From contig JAGQTQ010000011.1 of assembly GCA_020438905.1 (NCBI GenBank), positions 1 through 35,788 on the forward strand: DNA of 35,788 nucleotides. Direction: 5' to 3'. The translations under genes were made by a program, and so were the position numbers. The notes under the pieces are model-generated. The model ran no database searches and was not told the origin of the DNA. It saw only the letters and a list, made by a program, of their open reading frames with translations. This stretch comes from Mycobacterium sp. (lineage in GTDB: Bacteria > Actinomycetota > Actinomycetes > Mycobacteriales > Mycobacteriaceae). Positions 23,390-34,248 of this stretch are shown here, one piece after another (positions within the stretch are counted from its first letter, which is position 1; each line of letters begins with the position of its first letter).

Positions 23390-23731
23390 CGGCGGTCCCC
23401 TTGGTCCAACACATGGGCGGTCGCGGATGTGGCCGACGACCCGGTTCACTGCTTGAGCCGTACAAGTATCCCGAAAGAAACTCGATTGCTCCGCGGAGTC
23501 CAAACCAACCGAACCCGGTCACGCCCCGAGAGCGCCGGTAGATCGAACCGATCGGCGATGCGTGATCCTTCGGGCGGAACCGCTATGTGCTGATCGTCGT
23601 GCCGTAGGTTTTCAGCGCCGTAGGTTTTCAGTGCCGTAGGTTTTCAGTGCCGTAGGTTTTCACGAGTCGAGGCCGACCGCGCCGGCGGTGAGATGCCGAC
23701 GGGACCGTGGAGTGCACCAGGAGGAGTCCCG
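23390..23731. other. Divergent intergenic region between the antiporter and PGRS-GH12 genes (342 bp)
   Basis: This region must hold promoters for both flanking genes. The only strong structure is the four-copy 16-bp tandem repeat at 23599-23662. No coding sequence is supported; the frames that read through it have no starts with ribosome sites other than those of the flanking genes. Confidence 0.6.
23599..23662. repeat. Tandem repeat, four copies of a 16-bp unit
   Basis: Unit GTGCCGTAGGTTTTCA occurs at 23599-23614, 23615-23630 (one T to C change), 23631-23646 and 23647-23662 without spacers. It ends 57 bp before the ribosome site of the PGRS-GH12 gene. The unit is not a multiple of three and is noncoding. 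This resembles a VNTR/MIRU-type locus whose copy number may vary between strains. Confidence 0.92.
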
Positions 23732-25504
23732 ATGAGCTGCTCAATCTCCCTGCGGCTGGGTCCGTTGGTGGCGGGAGTGGGCATGGGAGCCGCGATCGCG
23801 TGGATGCCCGCGGTGGCCTCCGCGGACACCGGTGCCGGTTCGGCGGCCGAAGCATCGACTTCCAGGCCATCGGAGAGCGGTACCGCCGCGGGAACACCGG
23901 CCCGATCGGCGGCGGCGGTGCAGTCTCGGCGCCCAGCCATTGCGCGGGCCTCCGGGGGGCGTTCCCAGCCCCCGGCCAACCGAACGCACCCAGCGGTCCG
24001 GGCCCCGGAAGGCCCAGACCCGGATTCCCCCATGCGGGAGGTTCCGGCGGACCTAGCGGTCCACGTCGAGCCCCCATCCCTACCGCCGGACGAGTTCGCG
24101 GTACCGGCACCGGCCGCGGTGCAGCCGAGCGCCGGCCATGCGGAGATCGCCTCTTCGGCGGCCGCGCGGAGCGCCGACCCCGATAACCGCCGGTTGCCGC
24201 GCGCCACCGCCCCCGGCGCGACCACCGCACAGGTGGTTTCGTCCATACCGACGTTCGGCGGCCCCGGTGGCGGCGCCGCCGGGCCGATCGAGTCGGCGAT
24301 CCGGTTCCTCGTCGGCAACGGCACCGCCGAGAACCCCGACGCCGGAATCCTGATCGGTAACGGCTACAGCTGGACGGCCGGCACCTGCACCACAACCTGC
24401 ACCGGCGGCAAAGCCGGCCTGCTCGGCAACGGCGGCAACGGCTGGGGCGGGGGTGATGGCGGCTCAGCCGGTTGGTTCGGTAACGGCGGCAACGGCGGGT
24501 CGGGCCTTCCCGGCGGCGCCGGGGGTGACGGCGGCACCGGCGGATGGTTCCTCGGAAACGGCGGCAACGGCGGCAACGGCGGTTCGGTGATCTCCGGCGC
24601 CGCGGCGGGCGGGGGCGACGGCGGCGACGGCGGGCACGCGGGAATCTTGTCGCTGTGGGGTGACGGAGGGAACGGCGGCGACGGCGGCAACGGCCTGGAG
24701 GCCCCCGGTGGAACCGGCGGTGCAGGAGGTTCTGGCCGCATTCTGTTCTTCCTGGACCGTCGAGGCGTCAACGGCGCCGACGGCGAGACCAACGTGGTGA
24801 TTTCGGACAACTTCGGAACCACCACGATCCAGGACAAGTACGTGGTGATGAACAACAACTACAACGGCGGCAGCCAGACCATCACCGTGACCCCCACCGG
24901 CTTCAGCATCACGGCGCGAACCGGCTCGGCACCTACCAACGGAGCGCCGCTGGCCTATCCTGCGGTCTATCTGGGATGCCACTACGGCAACTGCTCCCCG
25001 TCCAGCACACTCCCGGTGCAGATCGGCGGAATCAGCAGTGCCACAAGCAGTATCAGCTACACCTACCCCGGCGACGCCGGTGACATCTATGACGCCTCCT
25101 ATGACATCTGGATGGATCCGACACCGAAGACAACGGGTGTCAACCAGCAGGAATTGATGATCTGGTTCACCGAGCAGGGCGGGGTCCAACCCATCTCGTA
25201 TTCCTACGACGGCAAAGGGAATGCCATCCCCATCGCCACCATCACCATCGACGCGGTGAACTGGAACGTCTACCGGGGCAACAACGGCGCCAACAACGTC
25301 GTCTCCTACGTCGCAGTGGACACGATCGACACATTGACCGATCTCGACCTGCTCGACTTCATCGATGACGTCATGATCCGCACCGCCGACTTCCAGGAAC
25401 CGGTCACCGACGCCTGGTATCTGACCAGCGTTCAGGCCGGCTTCGAGCCGTGGAGCGGTGGGGTCGGCCTGACGGTCAACTCTTTCGACGCCACCGTCAA
25501 CTGA
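23732..25504 (+). CDS. Secreted PGRS-like protein with C-terminal GH12 cellulase domain
   Basis: A 590-aa protein. A signal peptide ends near MPAVASA. An Ala/Pro/Ser-rich linker runs to about 205. A PGRS-type region of GNGGNGG and GGDGG repeats spans about 225-345; there is no PE domain. From about 360 to the end is a complete glycoside hydrolase family 12 domain with AVYLGCHYGNC, DASYDIWMDP, the nucleophile Glu474 in QELMIWF and the acid/base Glu572 in QAGFEPWSGG. GH12 enzymes are retaining endo-beta-1,4-glucanases. Both catalytic residues are present, unlike the split celA2a/celA2b I recall from M. tuberculosis. AGGAGG lies about 7 nt before the ATG. The tandem repeat upstream may affect its expression. 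Confidence 0.9.
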   Translation: MSCSISLRLGPLVAGVGMGAAIAWMPAVASADTGAGSAAEASTSRPSESGTAAGTPARSAAAVQSRRPAIARASGGRSQPPANRTHPAVRAPEGPDPDSPMREVPADLAVHVEPPSLPPDEFAVPAPAAVQPSAGHAEIASSAAARSADPDNRRLPRATAPGATTAQVVSSIPTFGGPGGGAAGPIESAIRFLVGNGTAENPDAGILIGNGYSWTAGTCTTTCTGGKAGLLGNGGNGWGGGDGGSAGWFGNGGNGGSGLPGGAGGDGGTGGWFLGNGGNGGNGGSVISGAAAGGGDGGDGGHAGILSLWGDGGNGGDGGNGLEAPGGTGGAGGSGRILFFLDRRGVNGADGETNVVISDNFGTTTIQDKYVVMNNNYNGGSQTITVTPTGFSITARTGSAPTNGAPLAYPAVYLGCHYGNCSPSSTLPVQIGGISSATSSISYTYPGDAGDIYDASYDIWMDPTPKTTGVNQQELMIWFTEQGGVQPISYSYDGKGNAIPIATITIDAVNWNVYRGNNGANNVVSYVAVDTIDTLTDLDLLDFIDDVMIRTADFQEPVTDAWYLTSVQAGFEPWSGGVGLTVNSFDATVN

Positions 25505-27110: not shown

Positions 27111-27923
27111 TCAGCCGGGTGGGGTCGTGTCCCCGGACCGAATCTCCGGTGACCCGGCGGCGCCATTGAGCCTTTGCAGCTCCACGGTGAGTGCGTCAAT
27201 CCGTTGCTGCATGTCAAGTCGCAATTCGTCGATCTGGGCAGTTGTTACGGCGGTGTTCGCGGCGTCTTCGTCCGAGACCTTCTCGATCACCCATGACGCC
27301 AGGGTCGCGGTCACCAGACCCACCAGGCTGATGCCACCGATCATCAGGAACACCGCAACCACTCGGCCGGCCGTGGTGACCGGCGAGAGATCGCCGTAGC
27401 CGACGGTGGTGACCGTAGTGACCGACCACCACACGGCGTCACCGAAGTTCTTGATCACCGAACCCTCGACACCGCGTTCCTCTTCCAGAATCGCCAGCGA
27501 AGCAACATAGATGAGCAGGATCGAGCTGAACGCGGTGTAGGTGATCACGCGCCCGCGGATGGCACCACCGACCGCTTTCTGCAATGCGCTGAACAGAACC
27601 AGAAGCCGCAGGAGGCGCAACGGCCTCAGGAAGGGCAGCGCCACGATCGCCAGGTCGATCAGGTGCTGGAAGAACCAGCTTGAGCGATGGTCGGCAAGCA
27701 CCAGCCGGATGAGGTAGTCGATCACGAACAGCACGTAGGTGACCGCGAGGATGACCTCCAGGATCTCGGTGGTGGGCCCCTGTGGATCGGCGAGAACCTG
27801 GATCGAGTACGCGATCAGGAAGATGGTGGCGACGCCGGCAAGTGGCCACTCGGCGCGACGCTCCCAGCGGCGCACCCTGGGTTCGTGCTCGATGACGGCC
27901 GTATCCGCGAAAGACTCCGCCAT
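27111..27923 (-). CDS. Six-helix voltage-gated-type potassium channel
   Basis: A 270-aa ion channel. Helices S1-S4 cover about residues 25-130, with an S4-like Arg-rich segment FLRPLRLLRLLVLF. The pore loop has the exact K+ selectivity filter TVGYGD (173-178) after WWSVTTVT, then S6 FLMIGGISLVGLVTATLASWVI. The cytoplasmic tail is a coiled coil (IDELRLDMQQRIDALTVELQRL) likely to aid tetramer assembly. ATG at 27923 has AGGAGGGG 8 nt upstream. It is a monocistronic gene on the minus strand, 158 bp from bfd. Together with the antiporter it gives this block two cation transporters. Confidence 0.9.
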   Translation of the reverse strand: MAESFADTAVIEHEPRVRRWERRAEWPLAGVATIFLIAYSIQVLADPQGPTTEILEVILAVTYVLFVIDYLIRLVLADHRSSWFFQHLIDLAIVALPFLRPLRLLRLLVLFSALQKAVGGAIRGRVITYTAFSSILLIYVASLAILEEERGVEGSVIKNFGDAVWWSVTTVTTVGYGDLSPVTTAGRVVAVFLMIGGISLVGLVTATLASWVIEKVSDEDAANTAVTTAQIDELRLDMQQRIDALTVELQRLNGAAGSPEIRSGDTTPPG

Positions 27924-28081
27924 GACAGCAACCCCTCCTGTTCCGGCGTCGCCGATACGAGACCCGCAATCTGCCAAGCCGCAATCCGACGCCCGCAATC
28001 GGACAAGGTAGTCGCGAGCCTTCCGGAGCCTCCGTGCGGACCGTGCACAGGCCCGCGTCGATGTGGCCGAGGCCCCCGTCC

Positions 28082-28335: not shown

Positions 28336-28383
28336 ATGTACGCTGGAGCCGACGGCGCGGGGTCCGATTCACAAGGAGACGAA

Positions 28384-28863
28384 ATGCAGGGTGACGCTGA
28401 GGTTCTGAAGCTGCTGAACGAGCAGCTGACCAGCGAATTGACCGCTATCAACCAGTATTTCCTGCATTCGGAGATGCAGGACAGCTGGGGCTTCACCGAG
28501 ATCGCGAAGCACACCCGGGCCGAGTCAATGGAGGAAATGGTCCACGCCGAGCGGATCACCGACCGGATCCTGCTGCTCGACGGATTGCCGAACTACCAGC
28601 GGATCGGGTCGCTGCGCATCGGGCAGACGCTCCGCGAGCAGTTCGAAAGTGACCTTGCGATCGAGTACGAGGTGGTCGCCCGGCTCAAGCCCGGGATCAT
28701 CATGTGCCGGGAGAAGCTGGACGCCACGACGGCGACGCTGTTCGAGGAGATTCTCGCCGACGAGGAACAGCACATCGACTACCTGGAAACGCAACTGCAG
28801 CTGATGGACAAGCTCGGCGAGCAGCTCTACTGCGCCCAGTGCGTGTCACGTCCGCCGAGCTGA
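28384..28863 (+). CDS. bfrA: Bacterioferritin BfrA
   Basis: A 159-aa heme-containing ferritin, full length. Ferroxidase ligands are in place: Glu18, Glu51, His54 (EEMVHAE), Glu94, Glu127 and His130 (DEEQHIDY). Met52 is the axial heme ligand at the subunit interface. It stores iron as a ferric mineral in a 24-mer shell in the cytoplasm. The sequence is very close to the M. tuberculosis BfrA I recall, including the C-terminal AQCVSRPP. AAGGAG lies 5 nt before the ATG at 28384; the upstream in-frame ATG at 28336 lies next to the IdeR boxes and has no ribosome site. Confidence 0.95.
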   Translation: MQGDAEVLKLLNEQLTSELTAINQYFLHSEMQDSWGFTEIAKHTRAESMEEMVHAERITDRILLLDGLPNYQRIGSLRIGQTLREQFESDLAIEYEVVARLKPGIIMCREKLDATTATLFEEILADEEQHIDYLETQLQLMDKLGEQLYCAQCVSRPPS

Positions 28864-31548: not shown

Positions 31549-31989
31549 ATGGCACGGTACGTGACCAAGGTGAGGACCGCGAAGACTCCGCAGGAGGCAT
31601 TCGCCTACATGGCCGATCTCCGCAACTTCACCGAGTGGGACCCGGGCGTGAAGGCTGTCAAGCAGGCAGAGGGTTCGGGCGGCGGCCTGGATGCGGTGTT
31701 CGACGTCACCGTCGCCGGTCCAGTCGGCGACCTGACATTGCGGTACGAGACCGAGGAGCACGACGCCCCGCGAAACCTCCTTGTGGTGGCCCGCAGCACC
31801 ATCTTCACTTCAATCGACCGGATCACGGTCGAACCCGACGGCACTGGATCAGTCGTCACCTATGACGCAGACCTCCGCCTGAACGGCCTGTTGCGCCTCG
31901 GCGATCTGGGCCTTCGGCTGGTATTCGACAGGATCGGTGACCGGGCTGCAGCCGGCCTGCGCCGGGTTCTCGGAGGGCAGGCGGCCTGA
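31549..31989 (+). CDS. SRPBCC (START/polyketide cyclase-like) small-molecule binding protein
   Basis: A 146-aa protein of the helix-grip fold. The opening VTKVRTAKTPQEAFAYMADLRNFTEWDPGVK is the standard SRPBCC start, followed by paired strands such as DAVFDVTVAG and VVTYDADLRL and a C-terminal helix from LGLRLVFDRIGDRAAAGLRR. These proteins bind hydrophobic ligands, sometimes with cyclase or hydratase activity. AAAAGGAG lies 5 nt before the ATG at 31549. It follows the hemophore-like gene by 199 bp and precedes the convergent tRNA gene. No catalytic residue can be named. Confidence 0.85.
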   Translation: MARYVTKVRTAKTPQEAFAYMADLRNFTEWDPGVKAVKQAEGSGGGLDAVFDVTVAGPVGDLTLRYETEEHDAPRNLLVVARSTIFTSIDRITVEPDGTGSVVTYDADLRLNGLLRLGDLGLRLVFDRIGDRAAAGLRRVLGGQAA

Positions 31990-32031
31990 CGTCGATTCCG
32001 GAGTCATGAGCCACAGCCACCTGCGTCGACA

Positions 32032-32108
32032 TGGTGCCCCCAGTCGGACTCGAACCGACACTTGGCGGATTTTAAGTCCGCTGCCTCTGCCAATTGGGCT
32101 ATGGGGGC
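32032..32108 (-). tRNA. tRNA with anticodon UAA (Leu), short variable loop, CCA encoded
   Basis: The minus strand folds as a complete cloverleaf. The acceptor stem GCCCCCA pairs with TGGGGGC, and the D arm has GCC/GGC with the GG pair in its loop. The anticodon stem GCGGA/TCCGC has loop CTTAAAA, so the anticodon is UAA. The T arm GTCGG/CCGAC has loop TTCGAGT. The discriminator is A73 and CCA is encoded. The variable region is only five bases (CAAGT), whereas bacterial leucine tRNAs normally have a long variable arm. The gene reads UUA codons, which are very rare here; echA9 has one. Confidence 0.9.
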
Positions 32109-32203
32109 GCGCCGACACCGGCTGACAGCACCGTACCGTCGCGGTGCGGCCGGCCGTCGGTAGCCCACGCTGCGGACAGCCGAATCCGGGCCGGGCCGAG
32201 TTC

Positions 32204-32233
32204 CTGACACATCACCGGGCAGACAACTATCGT
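32204..32233 (+). promoter_or_regulatory. Candidate sigma-A promoter of the Cys-rich peptide gene
   Basis: CTGACA (32204-32209) and TATCGT (32228-32233) are 18 bp apart and fit -35 and TANNNT -10 elements. Transcription would start near 32240, just before the leader hairpin GCCCAC-ACCGC-GTGGGC (32243-32259). Confidence 0.45.
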
Positions 32234-32242
32234 TGAGTCCAG

Positions 32243-32259
32243 GCCCACACCGCGTGGGC
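32243..32259. promoter_or_regulatory. Inverted repeat in the leader of the Cys-rich peptide gene
   Basis: GCCCAC and GTGGGC flank a 5-bp spacer, ending 3 bp before the ribosome site of the gene at 32278. It may be an operator for a metal-responsive repressor or a leader hairpin; neither is shown. Confidence 0.4.
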
Positions 32260-32277
32260 GCGAAGGAGATTAACGCC

Positions 32278-32388
32278 ATGAGCATTCCCGAGGTCAAGCG
32301 AGTGGGCGGTTGCACCTGCCGCTGCGGCGCCTGCAAGAGCCAGGCGCACTGCAAGAACATCGGCAGCGGTTGCCGGGTCAAGCTCTAA
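32278..32388 (+). CDS. 36-aa cysteine-rich, metallothionein-like peptide
   Basis: The frame reads MSIPEVKRVG, then GCTCRCGACKSQAHCK, then NIGSGCRVKL and a TAA stop. Six cysteines (12, 14, 16, 19, 25, 32) and His24 make up a fifth of the peptide, with spacing CxCxCxxCx5Cx6C. This density suits a small metal-thiolate cluster for Cu(I), Zn or Cd. AAGGAG lies 9 nt before the ATG, a promoter-like pair lies upstream and a hairpin follows, so it looks like a real short gene. It is not similar to MymT as I recall that sequence. Other readings are a secreted disulfide peptide (no signal is seen) or a ribosomally made peptide precursor. Confidence 0.72.
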   Translation: MSIPEVKRVGGCTCRCGACKSQAHCKNIGSGCRVKL

Positions 32389-32402
32389 GCACCGCCCGTT
32401 CT

Positions 32403-32435
32403 GAACCGTCGGGTCCGACTCGGTCCCCGCGGTTC
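32403..32435. terminator. Possible hairpin terminator between the Cys-rich peptide and the 99-aa hypothetical
   Basis: GAACCG (32403-32408) pairs with CGGTTC (32430-32435), and the stem extends inward with mismatches. It lies 15 bp after the peptide stop, between convergent genes. The imperfect stem makes this tentative. Confidence 0.4.
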
Positions 32436-32457
32436 TTCAGTGGGTTCCTGATCCCCG

Positions 32458-32757
32458 CTAATCCCTCGACTGGTTGCGGGTGAACTCCGGCGCCCAGTCG
32501 TCTTCAGGGACCCAATCCGATTTGAGGCGGAAGTCGCACCGATCGTCTCCGGCGGACGAGGTTCGGGGTGGCCGCATTGCGATGTGCAGTTTGCACACCC
32601 CGCACCGGGTGATGTCGATCCCCCAGTCCTCCTCGTCGCCCTCCACAACCTCGCAGTCCCAGCCGCCCTCGTACGGGTGCGTCTTGGCGTAGTGAGCCAC
32701 GTACCGCCAGTAGAGCTTTCCGAAGCCGAACTCCCTATCTCGCGGCCTACCGGTCAC
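32458..32757 (-). CDS. Conserved-looking small hypothetical protein with CxxC motif
   Basis: A 99-aa soluble protein that I do not recognise. It has an aromatic N-terminal part, FGFGKLYWRYVAHYAKTHPYEGGWDCEV, then ITRCGVCKLHIAM and DDRCDFRLKSDWVPEDDW. Four cysteines (one alone, CGVC, one alone) could bind zinc or form disulfides; the second half is very acidic and Trp-rich. GTG at 32757 has GGGAG 5 nt upstream. It starts 43 bp after ppx2 on the same strand, so it may be the last gene of the eno operon. Confidence 0.65.
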   Translation of the reverse strand: MTGRPRDREFGFGKLYWRYVAHYAKTHPYEGGWDCEVVEGDEEDWGIDITRCGVCKLHIAMRPPRTSSAGDDRCDFRLKSDWVPEDDWAPEFTRNQSRD

Positions 32758-32800
32758 CTCGACTCCCAGCCTCGCCCAGCCGGATCACCGAATCGACGGA

Positions 32801-33760
32801 TCAACGGATCGACAGGGCGATTCCGTCGAGGATGTCGTGCTCGCTGACGACGAGTTCGTCGATCCCGGCCCGCTGGGCGAGCGCCGCGGCCAATTCCTGC
32901 ACCACGATCGCGCCGCCCCCGATCACATCGACCCGGCCCTCGTGCATCGGCCCCAGCGCGGCGCGCTGCTCGCGGGTCATCGAGATCAGCCGGTCGCACA
33001 CATCCAGCAGATCGGCGAACCGCACCCGGGACAGATGGATGGCCTCGGAGTCGTAGACGGTCATGTGGTGGGCCAGCGCGGCGATGGTGGTGAACGTTCC
33101 GGCCACGCCGACCCAGGTCTGGGCCCGCTGGACCGGAACCACCCGCAGTGCCTCACCGAGACGCTCCCGCACCACCTCGCGGGCGGCGCCCACCTCGTCG
33201 GCAATCGGCGGATCGGAGTGCAGACACCGCTCAGTCATCCGCACGCAGCCGATATCCGCGGAGTAACTGGCCTGCACGCCGTCATGGGTGCCCAGCACCA
33301 CCTCCGTGGACCCGCCGCCGAGGTCGACCACCACGAAAGGCGCTGTGGCGGGATCCAATTCGCCGACGGCACCGTTGAAGGATAGTTCGGCCTCCTCGGC
33401 GCCGGTGATCACCTCGGCCGCCGCCCCGGGAACCACCTGTCCCAGAACGGTGGCGGTCATGGCGAAGAACTCGTCGCGGTTGGCCGCATCCCGGGTCGCC
33501 GAGGTCGCCACCATCCGCAGTTTGCGCACCGAGTGTTCGCGCAGCAGCTCGGCATAGTCCACCATCGCGGCCCTGGTCCGTTCCAGTGCCTGCGGGGCGA
33601 ACCGGCCGGTGGCGTCGACACCCTCACCGAGTCGCACGATGCGCATCTCCCGATGCAGATCCTGCAGCCGGCCCCCGGCCCGGTCGGCGATGAGCAACCG
33701 GATCGAGTTCGTGCCGCAGTCGATCGCCCCAACCCGCTCCCCCGCGGCATTCTGATTCAC
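32801..33760 (-). CDS. ppx2: Exopolyphosphatase / Ppx-GppA family phosphatase
   Basis: A 319-aa protein of the ASKHA fold, the same length I recall for M. tuberculosis Rv1026 (PPX2). Phosphate-1 loop: VGAIDCGTNSIRLLIAD. Phosphate-2 loop: FVVVDLGGGSTEVVLG. Between them are RLGEGVDATGRF, VATSATRDAANRDEF and ITGAEEAELSF. The C-terminal half of long Ppx enzymes, which holds the HD domain, is absent, as is normal in mycobacteria. It hydrolyses polyphosphate or pppGpp-like substrates. GTG at 33760 overlaps the DUF501 stop by four bases (GTGA) and has AGGGGAG 5 nt upstream, implying translational coupling. Confidence 0.92.
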   Translation of the reverse strand: MNQNAAGERVGAIDCGTNSIRLLIADRAGGRLQDLHREMRIVRLGEGVDATGRFAPQALERTRAAMVDYAELLREHSVRKLRMVATSATRDAANRDEFFAMTATVLGQVVPGAAAEVITGAEEAELSFNGAVGELDPATAPFVVVDLGGGSTEVVLGTHDGVQASYSADIGCVRMTERCLHSDPPIADEVGAAREVVRERLGEALRVVPVQRAQTWVGVAGTFTTIAALAHHMTVYDSEAIHLSRVRFADLLDVCDRLISMTREQRAALGPMHEGRVDVIGGGAIVVQELAAALAQRAGIDELVVSEHDILDGIALSIR

Positions 33761-34248
33761 ACCCACTCCCCTCTGACGAGGATTCCGGCCATCGCCGGGT
33801 CGTCGGCGAGCATGGCCAGCGCCTCGTCCCCGAACGGATTGACCCCGCGGCCCTTGGCCAGCGCGTGAGCGATCACCACGTGCAGGCATTTGACCCGATC
33901 GGGCATGCCGCCGCCGGAGAATTCGGTACCCAGCGGCTCGACTGCGTCCCGCTCGGCCAGATACGACTCATGGGCGCGACGGTAGGCGGCCGCCACCTGG
34001 GCGTCCTCGCGCAGCCGGGCCGACATCTCACGCATGACACCCTCGGACTCCAAGCGACTCGCCGCGGCGGTCAAAGCCGGGTGGGTGAGGTAGTACAGCG
34101 TCGGGAACGGGGTTCCGTCGGGCAACCGGGGTGCGGTCTTGACCACACCGGGTTCACCGTTGGGGCAGCGGTAGGCGATCTCCAGTACTCCCCGCGGGTC
34201 GCGACCGAGTTGTCGCGCCACCGCGTCGAGATCAGCCGGGTCAACCAC
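33757..34248 (-). CDS. DUF501 family protein, Rv1025-like
   Basis: A 163-aa soluble protein of family DUF501. Characteristic parts are ARQLGRDPRGVLEIAYRCPNG, PFPTLYYLTHPALTAAASRLE, ESYLAERD and MPDRVKCLHVVIAHALAKGRGVNPFGDEAL. The conserved Cys, His and Arg residues suggest an enzyme or metal site, but no activity is known to me. GTG at 34248 overlaps the upstream ftsB-like stop by 8 bp, and its own stop overlaps the ppx2 start, so all three are translationally coupled. The eno-ftsB-DUF501-ppx order is a conserved actinobacterial cluster. Confidence 0.9.
   Translation of the reverse strand: MVDPADLDAVARQLGRDPRGVLEIAYRCPNGEPGVVKTAPRLPDGTPFPTLYYLTHPALTAAASRLESEGVMREMSARLREDAQVAAAYRRAHESYLAERDAVEPLGTEFSGGGMPDRVKCLHVVIAHALAKGRGVNPFGDEALAMLADDPAMAGILVRGEWV

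Follow-up and report, generated by a model that had tools for sequence, protein, structure and literature searches.

Metallothioneins form a class of very short proteins that are rich in Cys, carry CxC motifs and have few or no aromatic residues, and a 21-residue stretch with six Cys and one His can coordinate one or two Zn or Cd ions or a Cu(I) thiolate cluster. The known prokaryotic family, PF02069 (the SmtA/BmtA type), is short and Cys-rich with CxC motifs and His, while the standard CCHC zinc knuckle has the spacing Cx2Cx4Hx4C and a basic tail. For mycobacteria, one report describes MymT as a RicR-regulated copper metallothionein of M. tuberculosis, 53 residues long (PMC10470581), and another describes Cys-rich uORFs, located on leaderless mRNAs ahead of same-strand genes and proposed to be Cys-responsive attenuators (PMC4633059). 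The present study analyzes a short gene found in a window of 35,788 nucleotides, the whole stretch of DNA under study, from a Mycobacterium sp. draft assembly (3.7 Mb in 189 contigs, 84.9% complete), and compares it with these systems and with its own relatives (features in Table 1). Its product, MSIPEVKRVGGCTCRCGACKSQAHCKNIGSGCRVKL by translation, is 36 residues long with six Cys spaced CxCxCxxCx5Cx6C, exactly as the first-pass annotation had claimed, and it shows the sequence traits of the metallothionein class, i.e. 6 Cys among 36 residues, CxCxC and no F, W or Y, the aromatics being present in 25 of 109 relatives. That annotation had also called the peptide Cys- and His-rich; the first half of the description holds, but the window peptide contains only one His, and "His-rich" is a better fit for some relatives.

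The peptide resembles PF02069 in being short and Cys-rich with CxC motifs and a His, but the PF02069 HMM was matched at E ≤ 1 neither by the window peptide nor by 31 members of its family; a search with the same HMM gave hits in 0 of 78 genomes of the genus, with a control Synechococcus elongatus genome positive. By this comparison the peptide is outside the known prokaryotic metallothionein family, and the earlier proposal of a possible metallothionein is left plausible as to function but without a match to PF02069 or any other family. With the CCHC zinc knuckle it shares a Cx2Cx4H core and a basic tail, but here the last spacing is 6–7 rather than 4 and three further Cys are conserved. Like MymT, it is a small mycobacterial protein, here presumed to bind metal through Cys, and it is the shorter of the two, 36 residues against 53 (PMC10470581). 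It is also a short, Cys-rich, mycobacterial frame like the uORFs (PMC4633059), but unlike those leaderless frames it has a ribosome site and a convergent neighbor.

Table 1. Positions in the window of the peptide gene, its candidate signals and its flanking genes
Feature	Position	Strand	Evidence or remark
Microprotein coding frame, 36 residues (6 Cys, 1 His), stop included	32278..32388	+	Translation, tblastn, profile, selection counts
Promoter-like pair CTGACA-N18-TATCGT	32204..32233	+	Sole such pair in 31950-32800; 0.1 expected in shuffles
5′ leader hairpin GCCCAC-ACCGC-GTGGGC, just upstream of ribosome site	32243..32259	+	Stem common to subtype A
Shine-Dalgarno AAGGAG, 9 nt before ATG	32263..32268	+	Sequence
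3′ hairpin, possible terminator	32403..32435	+	Fold z -2.95; GC hairpins in relatives
tRNA-Leu(taa), upstream neighbor, context	32032..32108	-	About 170 nt from peptide gene
ppx (Ppx/GppA phosphatase), convergent downstream neighbor, context	32801..33889	-	Next gene of at least 90 residues in 14 of 17 subtype-A loci

Searches of other collections placed the peptide in no described family. The window peptide gave no Pfam match at E ≤ 1, none in NCBIfam and no PDB chain by sequence; the 31 relatives gave one weak match each to four Pfam families, with a best E of 0.014, and the sole PDB match obtained by profile had an E of 2.3. Against PHROGs the 31 members found nothing above chance (one at 0.36), tblastn of the window peptide against phages and plasmids found no match, and a subtype-D peptide matched three phage records at E = 8. 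With matches by tblastn and PHROGs at chance level only, we rejected a phage or plasmid origin. A description of the family was not found in the accessible parts of the open-access literature, and a subscription paper or a "hypothetical protein" entry could exist.

Plain tblastn of the window peptide (E ≤ 0.01) matched 42 of 198 genus genomes, the window's own among them, and a profile of 31 members extended this to 83 of 198, a few of them weak and one with an internal stop, or 76 of the 185 genomes of good quality. A search of a named collection, which employed Cys-containing peptide patterns, returned 52 loci. Across the order the last profile matched 19 of 298 genomes, 17 of them inside the genus and both others weak (G217 at 7e-4 and G353 at 9e-5), an earlier search having matched 18 of 298 with 16 inside; across the phylum there were 12 of 396, including six outside the genus at 0.004–0.007 that we read as chance. 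The family thus sampled appears nearly confined to mycobacteria in these genomes; environmental species that carry it include Mycolicibacterium rhodesiae and M. sphagni. The closest named relatives (L031–L050) come from MAGs labelled Mycobacterium, Mycolicibacterium, Mycobacteriaceae, actinobacterial and, once, Bifidobacterium. Two metagenome records titled Bifidobacterium breve (L045, L057) carry the peptide beside mycobacterial-type ppx, DUF501, ftsB-like and eno clusters, and because these are the gene clusters of mycobacterial loci the labels look wrong.

Conservation of all six Cys, which had been proposed at first pass as a check on the gene, was found in 30 of 30 loci from plain tblastn and in 112 of 112 loci of a wider set; a start rule called a peptide in 109 of the latter, excluding L039, L044 and L154, which nevertheless have the six Cys. 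Family peptides range from 31 to 57 residues. Alignment A4 was built without repeats, GTG starts and peptides of more than 46 residues, which left 84 of 92 distinct peptides and, with the window, 85 rows. In these C12, C14, C16, C19, H24, C25 and C32 were invariant and N27 was present in 83, although the Cys invariance is built in because rows were chosen by Cys pattern. The His before the fifth Cys occurred in 109 of 109 peptides even though row selection allowed His or Gly, and position 35, occupied in 81 aligned members, was Lys or Arg in 72 of them. Short sequence rules, not a tree, sorted the 109 loci into 19 of subtype A (the window's type), 21 of B, 45 of D, 7 of C, 5 of E, 6 of F and 6 others, with KHTGG...CDGGHHCHNIGSGC as the signature of B and ...HHCGNPPNC as that of D.

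The first-pass annotation had also named a comparison of silent with amino-acid changes as a way to refute the gene; in that comparison the latter were rarer, strongly so in B and D and modestly so in A. All values given here come from simple pairwise counting, with no correction for relatedness, saturation or codon bias, and the homology searches behind them favor conserved proteins. Over 20 subtype-A genes including the window's, whole-frame pN/pS was 0.41, against 0.62, 0.84, 1.06, 1.11 and 1.24 for the five other frames of the same genes, and residues 2–11 of subtype A gave 0.65. Core values of 0.33 for A, 0.03 for B, 0.18 for D and 0.45 for C are flattered, because the rows were chosen by Cys pattern and sorted by residues of the same core; at positions fixed by neither the sorting rule nor the Cys pattern the values were 0.54 for A, 0.09 for B and 0.28 for D. 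When loci were taken by tblastn rank, L009–L024 had a core pN/pS of 0.02 (0.04 at non-Cys positions), their 16 distinct DNA cores encoding 2 proteins, and L001–L008 had 0.39, rising to 0.55 outside the Cys and to 0.78 at six chosen positions. Away from rule-fixed positions, therefore, B and D stay low and A rises to 0.54–0.55, and the subtype-A values of 0.54–0.78 are near the lowest other-frame value, 0.62. Judged by these counts the family is clearly coding, the subtype B protein is near-frozen, and selection is clear in D and modest in A. The earlier description of a compact and complete gene is borne out by the conserved frame, the Cys and selection, and the frame in the window is almost certainly a genuine coding gene.

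All of the signals described around the frame at first pass, i.e. a good ribosome site, a promoter-like pair, a leader palindrome and a following hairpin, were recovered (Table 1). AGGAG was present in 19 of 19 aligned subtype-A leaders. All 20 subtype-A leaders, the window's among them, have TATNNT at −70 to −22 (mean of shuffles 0.71), and 14 of the 20 have NTGACA 16–19 nt ahead of it (mean of shuffles 0). Taken alone, the window's leader palindrome has a fold z of −0.97, i.e. it is not unusual. A stem of at least 5 pairs stood beside the ribosome site in 20 of 20 subtype-A leaders, with 14 distinct 5′ arms, so that relatives keep the hairpin with different letters (for example GCCCAC/GTGGGC, GGTCCGAC/GTCGGACC and GGCTCAC/GTGAGCC); the mean stem score was 9.25 versus 4.43 when shuffled, and 0 of 500 mononucleotide shuffles reached 9.25, relatedness being uncorrected. 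In L046, of subtype A, the best leader stem is at another offset, and subtypes B and D have different leaders in which the subtype-A hairpin is not kept as such. The hairpin after the window gene is strong, at −27 kcal/mol over a 66-nt stretch, and has no T run; long GC hairpins with T runs occur in some relatives, and a simple stem-plus-T terminator test was passed by 4 of 19 loci in subtype A, 2 of 21 in B and 3 of 45 in D. Within subtype A the promoter-like pair and the leader hairpin are, on these comparisons, conserved, and together with the 3′ hairpins in relatives their retention points to an independent transcription unit. Rfam scans of the window leader and of the leaders of seven subtype-D/X loci found none above gathering score.

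Some leaders of the other subtypes have elements of their own. Many subtype-D genes (L123, L124, L125, L130, L141, L145, L168, L170 and others) share a long element, approximately GAACTATTGTGAAGTCGTCATATGTTGATA, about 30–110 nt upstream of the start and with two TATNNT boxes. When this promoter element was sought in 60 genomes, allowing 3 mismatches at most, it was found in 6, once each and just upstream of the peptide gene; since it occurs solely by that gene, no metal regulon was seen through it. Leaders of L123, L125, L131, L159–L162 and similar subtype-D loci have an alike stem around CTCGGGAGTTTGCT...CCGG...CCCGA. In subtype B, L053, L055, L058, L060 and L068 have TGTGA-N6-TCACA upstream of the start, overlapping a −10-like box and resembling a CRP-family site.

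The gene had been noted as lying beside a tRNA, which is confirmed, and tRNA-Leu turned up in 17 of the 21 subtype-A loci scanned, 13 times no more than 250 nt from the peptide gene. The four loci without it are L045 and L048, with about 0.1 and 0.4 kb of upstream sequence, and L031 and L040, with more than 2 kb. On the other side, 17 subtype-A loci have a next gene of at least 90 residues in the fetched stretch, and in 14 of them this is ppx. Anywhere in the fetched stretch, a Ppx gene occurred at 17 of 19 loci in A, 21 of 21 in B and 33 of 45 in D, and many loci have KdpDE genes on the side opposite Ppx. The recurrent Ppx and KdpDE flanks suggest that the peptide gene was inherited vertically, with losses. 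Between the peptide gene and ppx in the window is a 99-residue frame (32458–32757, minus strand) with a PF14196 match below cut-off (E 5.5e-4). The upstream block of the window contains a glycosyl hydrolase family 12 gene (23693–25504, plus strand) and an ion-channel gene (27111–27998, minus strand); of the ten window ORFs tested, a single one is metal-related, a ferritin-like gene (28336–28863, plus strand) 3.4 kb away. At another locus, L120, positions 2171–2302 of the minus strand scored above the Rfam gathering score for the ALIL pseudoknot, an IS-type frameshift signal.

Neighboring genes are of limited use in assigning a function. Nine of the 45 subtype-D loci have a Cd-family heavy-metal P-type ATPase gene upstream, and in 8 of those 9 a gene for an ArsR/SmtB regulator separates it from the peptide gene; one member per cluster was identified, the ATPase as TIGR01512 and the ArsR as NF033788, both above cut-off. 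Because these loci are alike they may be one event. The cassette is real, but it is confined to one set of similar D loci, absent at the window, and probably reflects a single event. In 15 of 45 D loci the peptide gene is followed within about 1.2 kb by a gene of the ZIP family (PF02535, narrowly above cut-off), and L124 has a ZIP gene too, 189 nt away. A close ZIP orthologue (69–79% identity) was found in 9 of 78 genus genomes and adjoins the peptide gene in five; the other four have no peptide profile match, and in all four the ZIP gene is still in a DUF4383-ZIP-Ppx locus, one having a second copy elsewhere. Since ZIP is present at the locus without the peptide, we read it as locus context and rejected the linkage as independent support for a metal role. 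In subtype E, FGE-like (PF03781), sulfatase (PF00884) and HAD enzyme genes are near the peptide gene in four of five loci (L129, L136, L172 and L173), no FGE-like, HAD or sulfatase genes being found at the fifth, L137; in L046, of subtype A, such genes are some kilobases from the peptide gene. A same-strand peptide gene follows the FGE-like gene at 17 nt in L136, −3 nt in L172 and 65 nt in L173. Formylglycine-generating enzymes of aerobes use Cu(I), and with the FGE-like neighbors this makes a copper-carrier role in E a lead only.

We propose that the six Cys and His24 would fold around one or two thiophilic ions (Zn2+ or Cd2+, or a Cu+ thiolate cluster) and that the protein, which is probably cytosolic, would then buffer or hand on the bound metal in the manner of a metallothionein or metallochaperone, a role resembling that of metallothioneins without membership in a described metallothionein family. 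That this putative metal protein binds metal is quite likely, and for metal buffering or carrying as its role we see about an even chance; toward the reading as a whole, a real and independently transcribed gene for a metal-buffering or metal-carrying microprotein, we lean slightly. The metal could instead be structural and not cargo, in a zinc microprotein that would bind RNA, DNA or a protein partner and would have a small knuckle-like fold (Cx2Cx4Hx6–7C plus three Cys) with a basic tail. The fixed non-Cys residues of subtype B in the 16 rank-chosen loci, the conserved His24 and Asn27 and the basic residue at position 35 are all consistent with this: nearly every core residue is fixed in B, tighter conservation than a loose thiolate buffer would call for, and this is easier to reconcile with a folded, partner-binding protein than with a simple buffer. 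Subtype A, however, is more relaxed and speaks for a buffer, the window peptide has no zinc-finger family or PDB match, the 31 relatives yielded one weak zf-CCCH_tandem match (E 0.049) besides the poor profile match to PDB, and the spacing is not that of the standard zinc knuckle; we regard a structural role as a possibility to be taken seriously but doubtful. It is conceivable too, though on balance rather unlikely, that there is a mycobacterial superfamily of folded metal microproteins, with a shared C-C-C-C-HC-C core and several subtypes spread over at least three loci, each of which would serve a partner of its own: B a dedicated target that fixes it almost to the residue, and E an adjoining FGE-like protein that it supplies with copper.

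The remaining explanations do without metal as the main function. Six Cys within 21 residues would also suit a thiol peptide responding to oxidants, with metal release as a by-product, and an NDMA-dependent alcohol dehydrogenase gene is just upstream in some B loci and in L032 and L038 of subtype A (a cluster of 13 ORFs); but a pure thiol pool would not need the conserved His24, Asn27 and spacings, and the dehydrogenase, absent at many loci, does not belong to the thiol-redox enzymes, and we consider a redox role improbable. A RiPP or bacteriocin precursor cut before Cys12 could account for the Gly-Gly that precedes the Cys core in many members, and a radical SAM-like gene, named by eye and not by HMM, is in 10 of 45 subtype-D stretches. 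That gene, however, is at the same locus in 3 of 4 peptide-less genomes and in no A or B stretch fetched, Gly10 is present in just 54 of 85 aligned members and Gly11 in 63 of 85, and the leader would be about 10 residues; among the neighbors annotated, no linked modification enzyme tracks the precursor, which makes a RiPP very improbable. Mycobacterial uORFs that are short and Cys-rich have been described (PMC4633059), and a same-strand gene comes next at 16 of 21 loci in B and 30 of 45 in D, as a Cys-responsive leader peptide controlling a downstream gene would require. At the window, by contrast, the downstream neighbor is convergent, as it is in 15 of the 17 subtype-A loci having a next gene; a Shine-Dalgarno is present, a run of adjacent Cys codons is absent, the amino acids themselves are under selection, and the same-strand neighbor seen most often in B and D, which encodes a DUF4383 membrane protein, is not an obvious cysteine gene. 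We think an attenuator extremely unlikely, and we give next to no weight to a chance frame without a gene: the frame is short and the DNA GC-rich, the leader fold alone is unremarkable and selection in subtype A is modest, but the frame, Cys, promoter and hairpin are conserved and B and D are strongly selected.

The analysis delimits a defined family of putative metal proteins that is unmatched above chance in Pfam, in NCBIfam (for the window peptide) and in PHROGs, and that is carried by about two in five of the genus genomes sampled. Mycobacterial metal handling has been studied largely via MymT, exporters and Zur/RicR. If the metal role is true, the family would add to mycobacterial metal handling a further small ligand with a conserved promoter.
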